Shown in pieces: positions 60,092-63,203 of a stretch of DNA of 64,000 nucleotides. The notes under the pieces were generated by a model. It was not told the DNA's origin. It ran no database searches and saw only the letters and a program-made list of their open reading frames with translations. Source of the stretch: Symmachiella macrocystis. Lineage in GTDB: Bacteria > Planctomycetota > Planctomycetia > Planctomycetales > Planctomycetaceae. How positions within the stretch are numbered: the stretch's first letter is position 1; each line of letters starts with the position of its first letter. The stretch lies in the NCBI RefSeq assembly GCF_007860075.1, contig NZ_SJPP01000001.1, positions 3,259,490-3,323,489 of the forward strand, read 5' to 3'. The translations under genes and the position numbers were made by a program.

Positions 60092-61352
60092 TCATGCCAC
60101 CTTCAACGACATCGGGTATCCAATCTGATCGAATGCCGCTTCAAATGCGCCGACCACCACCGGGATTCCGCTGGCCGTGGTAAATATCGCGCCATGCAAC
60201 GTCAGCACGAATACTTCGGGATGCCGGGCAATCAGGTCGGCCGCGACGGTCTCAATGACGAGCTTCGACTCTTCCTGCTGTAGCCGACGAATCAGGTTTT
60301 CGTGCTCCCAACCGTCCCGGTTTATTTCGCGAATAAATTGGTATACCGAAGGGAACAACCGTCGGAATGCATCCTCGACATCGGACGGATATTCAGCCCC
60401 GTGTCGATTGGCCTTCCGCTTCGCTACGACATCGGCCAGAAACCGCTTCTTCAGGTCGTTGCGGGTGAAATTGGGACATGCCCCAATTCTCAGTTCGGTC
60501 AGCAGAAAATCGTAGAATTCACCCGTCTGGACCAGCTCGCAGTATCGATCAACATCCCCGCCGTGGGACGATGGAGCCCGCTTGTCCTGCTTCTGTTGCC
60601 TGTTCCTTCCTGCGCCCTGATTGGGCTTTGTCCTCTGTCTTGGACCTTAACTCTCTCCCGATGAGTGCTGGTTGACAACAGCGAATATCGACGTGCTGTA
60701 GCGGTTCTGACCGGAGGCGAAGCGCCGGCCGAATCTCCAGTTTCATGGAAGTGATGTTGTTGCTCAGTCGTCCGAATCGACCGACGTTGACATGAAAATC
60801 CCGATCTTCGATATCGCGGACCAGCACGCCTTGGCTATCCCACGGATTCGACCGTTGGGGCAAAGACGCGATGATGTCACGGACCTGATTCCCGTCGATC
60901 GTCAAAAGTTGCTGATGCCGCTCCAGGGCGAAGTGCTCGGGCTTCATTCTTGATTGCCGCTCGTGTTCTGCTTCCTCGTGAAACGATCGCAGTCGATCAA
61001 TCAACCGGAAATCTTCCGCCGCGATGCGGACGTGCTTGTCGTCGCGGAATCTCTCTGCCAACCGATACCCGAACGACTGCTTCCCTACCTGATAAGGAAC
61101 TCGCTCAACAGCTCCACGTTCCAGCAATGCATCCACCACATGGTTGTAGCGGTGCTTGTGCATGATGTTCCGTAAGTACTTGGCCATTAGGCGGACGTTC
61201 CCAAATTGATCAACTTGACCGCGAGCTGTCTTGGTGAGAATCAGCGACATGAAATAGCGAGCGTCATCAGCCTGGTGAATCAAATTCGGTGTCCGCAGGA
61301 ATTCACGCGGGTGAAACGATTCAGGCAAGCAGAATTGGAAAAGTCCGTTCAT
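60092..61352 (-). pseudogene. Family-A-polymerase-like protein, frameshifted
   Basis: Two frames complete one protein of about 419 residues. The first (61352-60549) has a winged-helix-like N-terminus, then RFGRLSNNITSMKLEIRPAL and motif A-like VDIRCCQPALIG. The second, open from 60646 to 60092, has GEFYDFL, motif B-like LKKRFLADVVAKRKAN, QQEESKLVIETVAADL and motif C-like LTLHGAIFTT. The switch falls within 60552-60646, probably at a run of four G near 60556-60559. Motif C in relatives reads HD; here it is HG (60191-60196), so the catalytic aspartate is gone. The ATG overlaps the stop of the previous gene (ATGA). Most likely a decaying gene. Confidence 0.7.
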
Positions 61353-62785
61353 TCGTCGGACTCCCAATTCATTTGCTGGAGTGCAACGTGTACGGTGTTC
61401 CTCACGCCGTCCAGGAATGCCGCGTCTTTTTCTTCCTCTGCAACCTCGTGGTTGTAGGCGTCTATGTCGATGACCAATTCAATCGCCGTGGTGAGAATCG
61501 TCTGCAAGTCGTCCGGATCGAGGGCTTCCAACTCGAAAACCGAATCGCCGTACTGATCAACGAACCGGTCATAATTGGTCGATGTGGCCTTGGCCGTCAT
61601 CACAGGTGGCAATTCGTATTCTTGCACCTGCTGCGCGGTCAGCGCCACCTTAATCGGATGGATTTCCTCGATGCCGAAATCATCACGCTTCGACCGGGCG
61701 AAGCTTTGTGCAATCTCTTCACCGTCCGGATCGAAGTCGGAAACCATCAGGAGAATCAACTTGGCTTTGCCACTGCGTTGAAACCGCTTGGCCATCGCGT
61801 ACCGGGGTGGCAAACTGCAATACCCGCGACCCGAGGTTAGCGGTATGGTGAAGTCTCCTGCCACGGGCTTAAGAATCGGTTTGATGGTGTTTTTCTCGGC
61901 CACAATCTCGATGTGATGGGGCTGCGATTGCATCAGATTCCGGTAGTAACCTTTGAGAAGATGATCGACTTGTTCCCGGATGAATCGACGGGGGTTAGCG
62001 TACACCTTCCACGTGGTGACCGGCCGCGTGGGATCATGGATTGCACGCCAGTCGATGTGACCAGCCAACCGCGCCCTGGTGAGCAATTCGACCAATGCCT
62101 TGTACGACTTTCCCGAGTTGTCGTATACCGAATTGGATTTGCTGGCGTGTTTCAGCGGTGGATCGTTCAGCAGGCCGTAGTGAATCGCGCGGTCCGACAA
62201 CGGCCAGAACTTCCTCCCATCGTTAATGACTTTGAAAATCGCATCCAGCATCGGCTGCTTGGCCTTGCTGATCTTCGCCCGCTGTTTGCGACCAACGATT
62301 TCGAAAGCATCGGCATCGACACCGGATTGCTGTGTTCGATACTCCGAAAGCGCCCGGTGGGATTCTTCAGGATTCGCGTTAATCAGCTCTTCGCGCAGTT
62401 TGACGGCCAAGCTCTTATCACGTTGGCGGTTGAATTCGCGGAGCAACAGAACGAATTGGTCGATGTCATCCTCGCGCCGAATTGGATCAACCCGACAAGG
62501 CACGGTCAGCAACCCTAGCCGCTTAGCCGCGGTGTAGCGACGATGGCCGGAAAGGATGAAGCCGTCCAAGCTGATCACCAGGGGCTCGCGAACTCCGAAT
62601 TCCCGAATAGATTCGGCCATCGCGATAATCTCTGGATCATCGCGATTGATGACGCCGTAGATATCGTCGTTTTCAGGCGACGGACGAATTTCCAAAAGCG
62701 GACGTTCTGAAATTGGGTCATGTCCCAATTCCGCACTCCGCTGCCGCCTTCTAGCCGTAGACTTGGGCGATGTGATACTATCCAT
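61349..62785 (-). CDS. ParB-like / topoisomerase VI-A (Spo11)-like fusion protein
   Basis: 478 residues. N-terminal ParB-like domain with FILSGHRRYTAA (GHRR at 80-83). The middle has PLSDRAIHYGLL (about 195-206), resembling the winged-helix segment carrying the catalytic tyrosine of TopoVI-A/Spo11; Y203 is the candidate. The C-terminal part is a Toprim domain: EIVAEKN (E297), SGRGY (318-322) and DFDPDG (350-355), the acidic metal-binding triad. TopoVI-A normally needs a B subunit; none is present, as in the standalone Topo mini-A proteins of mobile elements. The stop overlaps the polymerase-like gene's ATG. Its likely job is DNA cleavage or segregation/replication for the element; unproven. 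Confidence 0.75.
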   Translation of the reverse strand: MDSITSPKSTARRRQRSAELGHDPISERPLLEIRPSPENDDIYGVINRDDPEIIAMAESIREFGVREPLVISLDGFILSGHRRYTAAKRLGLLTVPCRVDPIRREDDIDQFVLLLREFNRQRDKSLAVKLREELINANPEESHRALSEYRTQQSGVDADAFEIVGRKQRAKISKAKQPMLDAIFKVINDGRKFWPLSDRAIHYGLLNDPPLKHASKSNSVYDNSGKSYKALVELLTRARLAGHIDWRAIHDPTRPVTTWKVYANPRRFIREQVDHLLKGYYRNLMQSQPHHIEIVAEKNTIKPILKPVAGDFTIPLTSGRGYCSLPPRYAMAKRFQRSGKAKLILLMVSDFDPDGEEIAQSFARSKRDDFGIEEIHPIKVALTAQQVQEYELPPVMTAKATSTNYDRFVDQYGDSVFELEALDPDDLQTILTTAIELVIDIDAYNHEVAEEEKDAAFLDGVRNTVHVALQQMNWESDE

Positions 62786-62805: not shown

Positions 62806-62879
62806 TGGCCCCGGTCGGACTCGACCCGACATCCCCGCCTTTGACAAAAGCGCGCTCTATTCAATTGAGCTACTGGGCC
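62806..62879 (-). tRNA. tRNA-Asp(GUC) inside the mobile element
   Basis: Complete cloverleaf of 74 bases: acceptor GGCCCAG/CGGGGCC with one A-G mismatch, D arm GCTC/GAGC, anticodon stem CGCTT/AGGCG, loop TTGTCAA with anticodon GTC, T stem GTCGG/CCGAC with loop GTCGAGT. Odd points: the T loop starts with G, and the discriminator is A where bacterial tRNA-Asp normally has G. No encoded CCA. It lies 20 bases before the ParB/TopoVI-A gene and 27 after DUF1580, in the same direction. Confidence 0.7.
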
Positions 62880-62906: not shown

Positions 62907-63203
62907 TCAGATGTTGGTGTCAAAATCACGCTCGGCTGCTGTGATTTCCCGCTCCCGCCGTCGCAGTGTCCGAACGGGCGGAGTGTCGCCATCGGCCGCG
63001 GCGGTGGTGGCCGCAAAGAATCGCTCGATCGCCTCATCGGTGGTGTAGCGAATGCCGCCACGGAGAAACGTTTCGAGTCGGACGCCACGAACACCTTTCA
63101 TCCGCCAGCGGTGAATCGTGGAAACGTGGACTGCACCACCAGGAAGCGTCTGGGCGGCTTTGGCAAGAGTGATGGGAGTTTCGTTCGCAAGGTCGATGCT
63201 CAT
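62907..63203 (-). CDS. DUF1580 helix-turn-helix protein (excisionase-like)
   Basis: 98 residues. ITLAKAAQTLPGGAVHVSTIHRWRM, shown here by its key parts AKAAQTLP and STIHRW, is a MerR/excisionase-like winged helix, and GGIRYTTDEAIERFF ends the domain. DUF1580 proteins are common in planctomycete mobile regions and are presumed regulators or recombination directionality factors. GAGG lies eight bases before the ATG. The iteron-like repeats are just upstream of its start. Confidence 0.8.
   Translation of the reverse strand: MSIDLANETPITLAKAAQTLPGGAVHVSTIHRWRMKGVRGVRLETFLRGGIRYTTDEAIERFFAATTAAADGDTPPVRTLRRREREITAAERDFDTNI

Follow-up and report, generated by a model that had tools for sequence, protein, structure and literature searches.

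A ParB domain joined to a Mini-A-type, Top6A/Spo11-like core in a protein family associated with planctomycete mobile elements

The fusion gene and its product

We have analysed a 64,000-nucleotide stretch of the genome of Symmachiella macrocystis (NCBI RefSeq assembly GCF_007860075.1, contig NZ_SJPP01000001.1, forward-strand positions 3,259,490 to 3,323,489), the whole of which is called here the window. It carries one intact open reading frame (ORF) of 478 amino acids (Table 1) whose product is a two-part protein: a ParB-type clamp domain and a Spo11/topoisomerase VI-like DNA-cutting core. We refer to it as a ParB-Mini-A fusion, Mini-A reportedly being, in Takahashi et al. 2020, the viral type IIB relatives of Top6A. 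A first-pass annotation, made from the sequence alone, had proposed such a fusion of ParB and TopoVI-A/Spo11, and both folds hold on a confident AlphaFold model. All of the residues that it singled out are present in the ORF (Y203 in DRAIHYGLL, E297 in AEKNT and DFDPDG at 350-355). The nearest full-length relative of the protein is 72% identical, and the gene differs from its closest relative at 123, 70 and 260 places in codon positions 1, 2 and 3, respectively. This concentration of differences at third positions, together with the existence of 46 other fusion loci, rules out a chance reading frame.

With respect to sequence searches, the ParB half matches ParB_N of Pfam (E=2.4e-5; 24.7 bits, slightly below the cut-off of 26.3 bits), ParB families of PHROG (down to 8.5e-14) and, weakly and well under their cut-offs, two ParB-type models of NCBIfam. 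A sequence search of the PDB with the fusion protein returned only ParB-fold proteins (ParB, Noc and sulfiredoxin). The C-terminal half matches phrog_6247, "DNA topoisomerase", over residues 218-458 (E=1.7e-41). No TopoVI-A match at E<=10 was found in a Pfam search of the fusion protein, and the link to Top6A was therefore taken to profile and structure tests.

Table 1. Features of the fusion gene and of its neighbourhood (window positions)
Feature	Position	Strand	Remarks
ParB-Mini-A fusion gene	61349..62785	-	one intact ATG-started ORF, 478 aa
ParB N-domain fold, residues 22-124	62414..62722	-	GHRR at 80-83, NRQR at 119-122
TopoVI-A/Spo11-like core (winged-helix 5Y-CAP + Toprim), residues 173-438	61472..62269	-	
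Y203 codon, predicted catalytic tyrosine	62177..62179	-	R199 four residues earlier; on second Y of Top6A RExYY
E297 codon, Toprim glutamate	61895..61897	-	invariant; aligned to Top6A Toprim E
DFDPDG 350-355, Toprim DxD metal site	61721..61738	-	
E418 codon	61532..61534	-	invariant; candidate counterpart of Top6A E342 (putative equivalence)
Polymerase-like gene, 5' piece	60549..61352	-	ATG overlaps fusion TGA (ATGA)
Polymerase-like gene, 3' piece, different frame	60095..60553	-	HG where five relatives have HD
DUF1580, excisionase/HTH-like, upstream of fusion	62907..63203	-	PF07618 E=2.6e-15; weak phrog_66 excisionase match, E 0.0034
Predicted tRNA-Asp(GTC)	62806..62879	-	20 bp upstream of fusion start, between DUF1580 and fusion

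The ParB half

Structure comparison on the confident AlphaFold model bears out the ParB N-domain fold. As to the central helix-turn-helix and the C-terminal dimer domain of ParB CTPases, matches to ParB extend to residue 138 at most, the Top6A-like core begins at about residue 173, and a prophage-type subset of the fusions carries its helix-turn-helix N-terminally instead. As modelled, this half is a ParB/sulfiredoxin-fold N-domain of the CTP-type nucleotide-binding kind. The first-pass description of a "ParB-type GHRR nuclease-like domain" was thus correct as to ParB, whereas a nuclease found no support, the fold being that of a CTP-binding ParB.

PMC8494293 reports that CTP makes ParB N-domains close, entrapping DNA, and that CTP hydrolysis, unlike CTP binding and clamp closure, depends on E78 of GERR and E111 of ENLQR. 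In the fusions the first of these glutamates is a histidine (H81) in 41 of 41 aligned proteins. The position of the second (118) is a glutamate in none of them, being occupied by F (5), Y (15), C (8), H (10), A (2) or N (1). The nucleotide-binding residues G80, R83, N119 and R122 are invariant in the same 41 sequences. Because the hydrolytic glutamates are gone and these four residues are all retained, we predict that the ParB domain binds a nucleotide without hydrolysing it.

The Top6A-like core

On the same model Top6A aligned over residues 173-438. The catalytic set is invariant in 41 of 41 aligned fusions and in all 50 rows of a mixed alignment of 11 fusions and 39 stand-alone proteins. 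The profile of these 50 C-terminal sequences was compared by hhalign with a Top6A reference alignment (A6) of 11 planctomycete sequences obtained by a PF21180 search. In local mode the score was 30.4 (probability 9.3), against a maximum of 24.3 over 100 column shuffles and 13.5 for the reversed profile; in global mode, which the shuffle controls do not cover, the probability was 57 and E 1.5e-5. The profile alignments place R199, Y203, E297, D350 and D352 on invariant Top6A residues, as the extended and global alignments also do for E418. PF21180 itself is present in 132 of 294 Planctomycetota genomes; it is absent from all 17 genomes listed for the family to which the window belongs, that of the window itself among them.

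The assignment of Y203 as the 5Y-CAP tyrosine, put forward in the first-pass annotation, is supported because the residue is invariant and aligned to the second Y of the RExYY of Top6A. The Toprim motif that it had read from E297 and DFDPDG is likewise present, invariant and aligned to the Top6A Toprim. In PMC13040014 the residues R102, Y106, E202, D254, D256 and E342 of Methanosarcina mazei Top6 are named; the spacing of four between R102 and Y106 is also that of R199 and Y203, and the invariant E335 of A6 would, from its spacing, be the M. mazei E342. According to the same source, the Top6 active site joins the tyrosine of one subunit to the Toprim of its partner, about 10 A apart at rest. 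A large distance between Y203 and E297/D350/D352 within one chain, which the first-pass annotation would have counted against itself, would therefore not refute the assignment.

When 63 stand-alone members were scanned singly, 11 matched DUF2399 and one matched, weakly, the Top6A Toprim model. Top6B (PF09239) was not found in the window's own genome, which is 96.6% complete (it is present in 4 of 14 control genomes), and the Top6A/Spo11 Pfam models gave no match there either. The label topoisomerase VI was rejected, there being neither a B subunit nor a Pfam match.

Relatives and origin of the fusion

The fusion set comprises 47 loci, the window included, and combines the near full-length loci from a scan of species genomes with six loci of viral contigs and the six genes of a genome draw. 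Three fusion genes and four matches to ParB alone were found in the window's own genome. Among 392 Planctomycetota genomes drawn, 20 gave a match at 1e-10: fusions in four (6 genes), the C-terminal half alone in 11 and ParB alone in five. The survey of planctomycetes suggested in the first-pass annotation thus did recover the same architecture. Patterns from six fusions, run against 84,980 species genomes, yielded 45 loci; of the 35 that are near full length, 30 are titled Planctomycetota and five lie in metagenome-assembled genomes of other phyla, which may have been misbinned. The isolate Blastopirellula marina DSM 3645 is among the carriers, and viral contigs (IMG/VR) supplied six fusion loci. 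One fusion frame is broken (L067) and two are cut by contig ends (L077 and L096). None of the 224 phage and 14 plasmid records with a match covered 80% of the window's fusion protein, and a viral scan with P0001 alone as query found no relative.

The stand-alone C-terminal half is common in viruses, with at least 520 confirmed among 600 pattern matches, of which 80 were used further. The stop-to-stop frames of these viral genes (79 measured of the 80) reach at most 382 amino acids and are therefore too short for the present fusion. In a quick tree of the C-terminal half all 46 fusion rows (L067 was left out of the trees) fell on one side and 63 stand-alone rows on the other (SH-aLRT 100). A more careful tree again set the fusions apart from 23 stand-alone rows (support 100/100). 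On these trees the fusions form one clade, with one origin.

Within this clade six prophage-type rows with a helix-turn-helix (HTH) domain (L009, L010, L036, L079, L081 and L098) form one group of the careful tree. The N-terminal HTH was recognised by pattern in L009, L010, L036 and L079 and by eye in L081, L098 and L099; scans of L036 match the HTH parts of CARF-HTH proteins, and terminase-like genes, named by eye, occur in L009, L036, L079 and L098. The two loci of the window's own genome in this group, L009 and L010, appear by eye to be prophage-type regions with near-identical fusion and ParB-methylase genes, and L010 has a transposase-like gene where its helicase gene ends prematurely. 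At L085 (953-2284) the reading frame opens with HTH-ParB sequence, as in the prophage-type fusions, and continues into a protein of the ParB-methylase type that has no Mini-A core; either a deletion has occurred between the two adjacent ParB genes or the assembly is at fault.

Mobile-element setting

A recombinase is found in 28 of the 47 fusion loci, a replication-type gene in 28 and both in 17; a gene of either kind was counted wherever it lay in the available stretch, and the classes are blast clusters of which representatives, not all genes, were checked with Pfam. Among the 25 well-flanked loci, with at least 4 kb on both sides of the fusion, the figures are 16, 15 and 9. Two recombinase clusters received their names by eye, one of serine recombinases and one of tyrosine recombinases (L034, L065). 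A sub-threshold Toprim match gave the cluster of L058, L061 and L009 its primase-helicase label, the name "polymerase-like" comes from motifs recognised in a class that Pfam does not match, and the replication-type count includes a DUF3987 protein (L059) and two HTH_36 proteins (L073 and L097). The replication gene next to the fusion varies: Prim-Pol, polymerase-like, primase-helicase or HTH_36.

Seventeen loci have an integrase no more than 300 bp from a tRNA gene. Exact repeats of the tRNA 3' end (25, 47, 49 and 17 bp) bound four elements of 6.1, 7.9, 9.4 and 14.4 kb; this test took in 23 loci with no shuffle control, and the 17-bp repeat is short. The 6.1-kb element (L056) consists of a 263-amino-acid ORF, a small HTH-like gene, the fusion, a Prim-Pol-cluster gene, a small regulator and the integrase. 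Many relatives of the fusion belong to planctomycete prophages or small mobile elements. The family is also a marker for compact elements integrated at tRNA genes, mostly from Planctomycetota, that keep this protein while their replication gene is exchanged.

ParB-methyltransferase-type genes occur in 7 of the 47 loci (one member was Pfam-checked). By eye, the gene that follows the fusion at L069 (9382-10014) has the look of a rolling-circle replication protein. Another locus of the window's own genome, L011 (contig C5), holds a serine recombinase, a Prim-Pol-like gene and a ParB-methylase, again by eye, with no Mini-A match.

The window copy and its neighbours

The polymerase-like gene that overlaps the end of the fusion gene belongs to a blast cluster present in 7 of the 47 fusion loci, the window included. 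This family (window 60095-61352, minus strand; L051:1625-2911; L053, L078, L095 and L099) is of about 430 amino acids and without a Pfam match (L051 scanned). Its motifs VDI..QP and LHDAI, recognised by eye, resemble the palm of a minimal DNA polymerase, and among 50,697 phage records only two matches were found, in records of 595 and 635 kb. A DUF1580 gene also lies upstream of the fusion in the loci of six relatives (L050, L053, L055, L062, L066 and L086). The predicted tRNA-Asp, at 7296-7369 of L008, has no close second copy in the genome and may belong to either the element or the host. A search for its attachment repeat with 14-mers in the window, L008 and L012 gave just the tRNA itself and one 16-base match 50 kb off in the window. 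With the integrases of relatives as queries no integrase was found in the window; all that turned up was a remnant about 13 kb away from the fusion gene. This tyrosine recombinase remnant (L012:309-797, minus strand) has an internal deletion and ends like the integrases of the fusion elements. Our reading is that the element is decaying while its fusion gene remains intact.

Proposed function and its alternatives

On balance we think it probable that the fusion is a type IIB enzyme of the Mini-A kind that cleaves DNA on behalf of a mobile element, likely in the replication or maintenance of that element. We hold this because both folds are found on a confident model, the catalytic set is invariant and the Top6A profile alignment scores above its shuffles; and also because of the single clade, the recombinase and replication-gene setting, the tRNA-bounded elements and the lack of Top6B in the host genome. 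From these features we infer dimeric, tyrosine-dependent cleavage, nucleotide binding and action on the element's DNA. In a dimer, Y203 from one chain would meet E297/D350/D352 from its partner to form the active site, and duplex DNA would be broken in both strands with 5'-phosphotyrosyl links. Its ParB domain would bind CTP or a related nucleotide without hydrolysing it, would close around DNA or tether itself to it, and would so position or license the cutting core on the DNA of the element itself. The likeliest use would be the relief of topology, the resolution of linked daughters, or breaks that initiate replication or recombination; a role in replication or maintenance is the one favoured by the gene neighbourhood. 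The protein may be what the first-pass annotation had called a "self-contained DNA-targeting and cleaving or segregation factor".

Several points weigh against this interpretation. The similarity to Top6A is weak in sequence (local hhalign probability 2-12%), the best and sole PDB match of the stand-alone Mini-A profile at E<=10 is 1d3y (E 0.51), the remaining four AlphaFold models are lower (pLDDT 78.6-83.3), and pTM is 0.68. Neither a recombinase nor a replication gene lies in the available DNA of 8 of the 47 loci, and only the 9 well-flanked loci mentioned above, of 25, show both. With the fusion's ParB domain as the only profile, no ParB-like gene was found within about 3 kb of stand-alone Mini-A at 80 viral loci (of the at least 520) or at nine planctomycete loci, so that the link to ParB is peculiar to the fusion clade. 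With no integrase nearby and a broken polymerase-like neighbour, the copy in the window may have ceased to serve a live element. Finally, activity, DNA binding and CTP binding are all predicted.

Toprim nucleases such as those of Wadjet (MksG) and Gabija raise the idea of an offensive or defensive nuclease that cuts competing phages or plasmids, with ParB recognising or sliding on the invader's DNA. We consider this unlikely: MksG aligns over residues 281-437 and JetD over 252-436 only, against 173-438 for Top6A; the 5Y-CAP tyrosine, absent in MksG according to PMC10123090, is invariant in the fusions; and the PADLOC matches of three members scanned fall nearly all on the ParB or HTH parts. 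A Wadjet/Gabija-type nuclease was accordingly not favoured, given the invariant tyrosine and the alignment range. MksG also speaks for a further proposal, a Toprim nuclease in which the tyrosine is structural and cleavage is hydrolytic, with no covalent intermediate, since this related enzyme has no candidate 5Y-CAP tyrosine (its authors, in the same article, propose a different one in the Toprim domain). This we hold to be quite improbable, R199 and Y203 being invariant in 50 of 50 rows and spaced as R102 and Y106 of M. mazei, and the winged-helix part aligning to Top6A.

A bolder scheme, to which we give a small chance, intermediate between those of the two nucleases, is a single-chain, nucleotide-gated type IIB topoisomerase. 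Here CTP-driven closure of a ParB dimer would replace the ATPase gate of Top6B, the enzyme closing on the element's DNA and then cutting it or passing strands. The DNA entrapment by CTP-closed N-domains (PMC8494293), the position of ParB N-terminal to the DNA gate, the failure to find Top6B in the genome and the invariance of G80, R83, N119 and R122 all fit. However, stand-alone Mini-A manages without ParB, and repeated gating cycles are doubtful because both hydrolytic glutamates are absent in 41 of 41 fusions; with hydrolysis lost, ParB closure may instead be a one-way licence for one programmed break or passage. Least probable of all is a partition or regulatory protein whose topoisomerase part is catalytically dead and only binds DNA. 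ParB domains usually act in partition or regulation and the window copy sits in an apparently decaying element, but none of the six catalytic-type positions varies within the family.

The clade bears on the question of how a Top6A-like core can function in the absence of its ATPase subunit. A natural clade with a ParB nucleotide clamp on such a core would allow a direct test of whether CTP binding licenses tyrosine-dependent cleavage. In its available part, PMC8185306 reports no characterisation of archaeal Topo VIII or of Mini-A.

Comparison with known systems

The winged-helix and Toprim fold and the catalytic set in register are shared with topoisomerase VI A and Spo11, from which the fusion differs in its very low sequence similarity, in the lack of Top6B in the genome and in the added ParB domain. 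The fold of the ParB N-domain is that of ParB, Noc, KorB and PadC; unlike in these proteins in general, both hydrolytic glutamates are replaced (as in PadC, according to PMC8494293) and a Top6A-like core follows. Phage ParB-methyltransferase proteins also join a ParB domain to a DNA enzyme, but it is a methylase there and a cleaving core in the fusion. MksG and JetD of Wadjet resemble the Toprim half; they act with SMC complexes, and MksG lacks the tyrosine that is invariant in the fusions (PMC10123090). Among the titles and summaries of the openly accessible literature we found no paper on a ParB-topoisomerase or ParB-Spo11 fusion.

The closest likeness is to Mini-A, described in PMC7614492 and PMC8185306, the former with that of phage NP1 as an example. 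A 300-amino-acid protein of NP1, AND74899.1, matches the fusion's C-terminal half (tblastn 1.3e-25; L093:41160-42062) and is presumably the published Mini-A of this phage; against 63 stand-alone proteins the profile-profile E of this half is 9.6e-56. Both have a truncated Top6A-like winged helix plus Toprim, conserved catalytic tyrosine and Toprim acids, genes in viruses or mobile elements, and no B subunit; the fusion alone has an N-terminal ParB domain. The first-pass annotation had noted that TopoVI-A relatives without a B subunit are known and that a ParB fusion is something different; to be more exact, the C-terminal half belongs with phage Mini-A, and the new part is its fusion to ParB together with the element setting.
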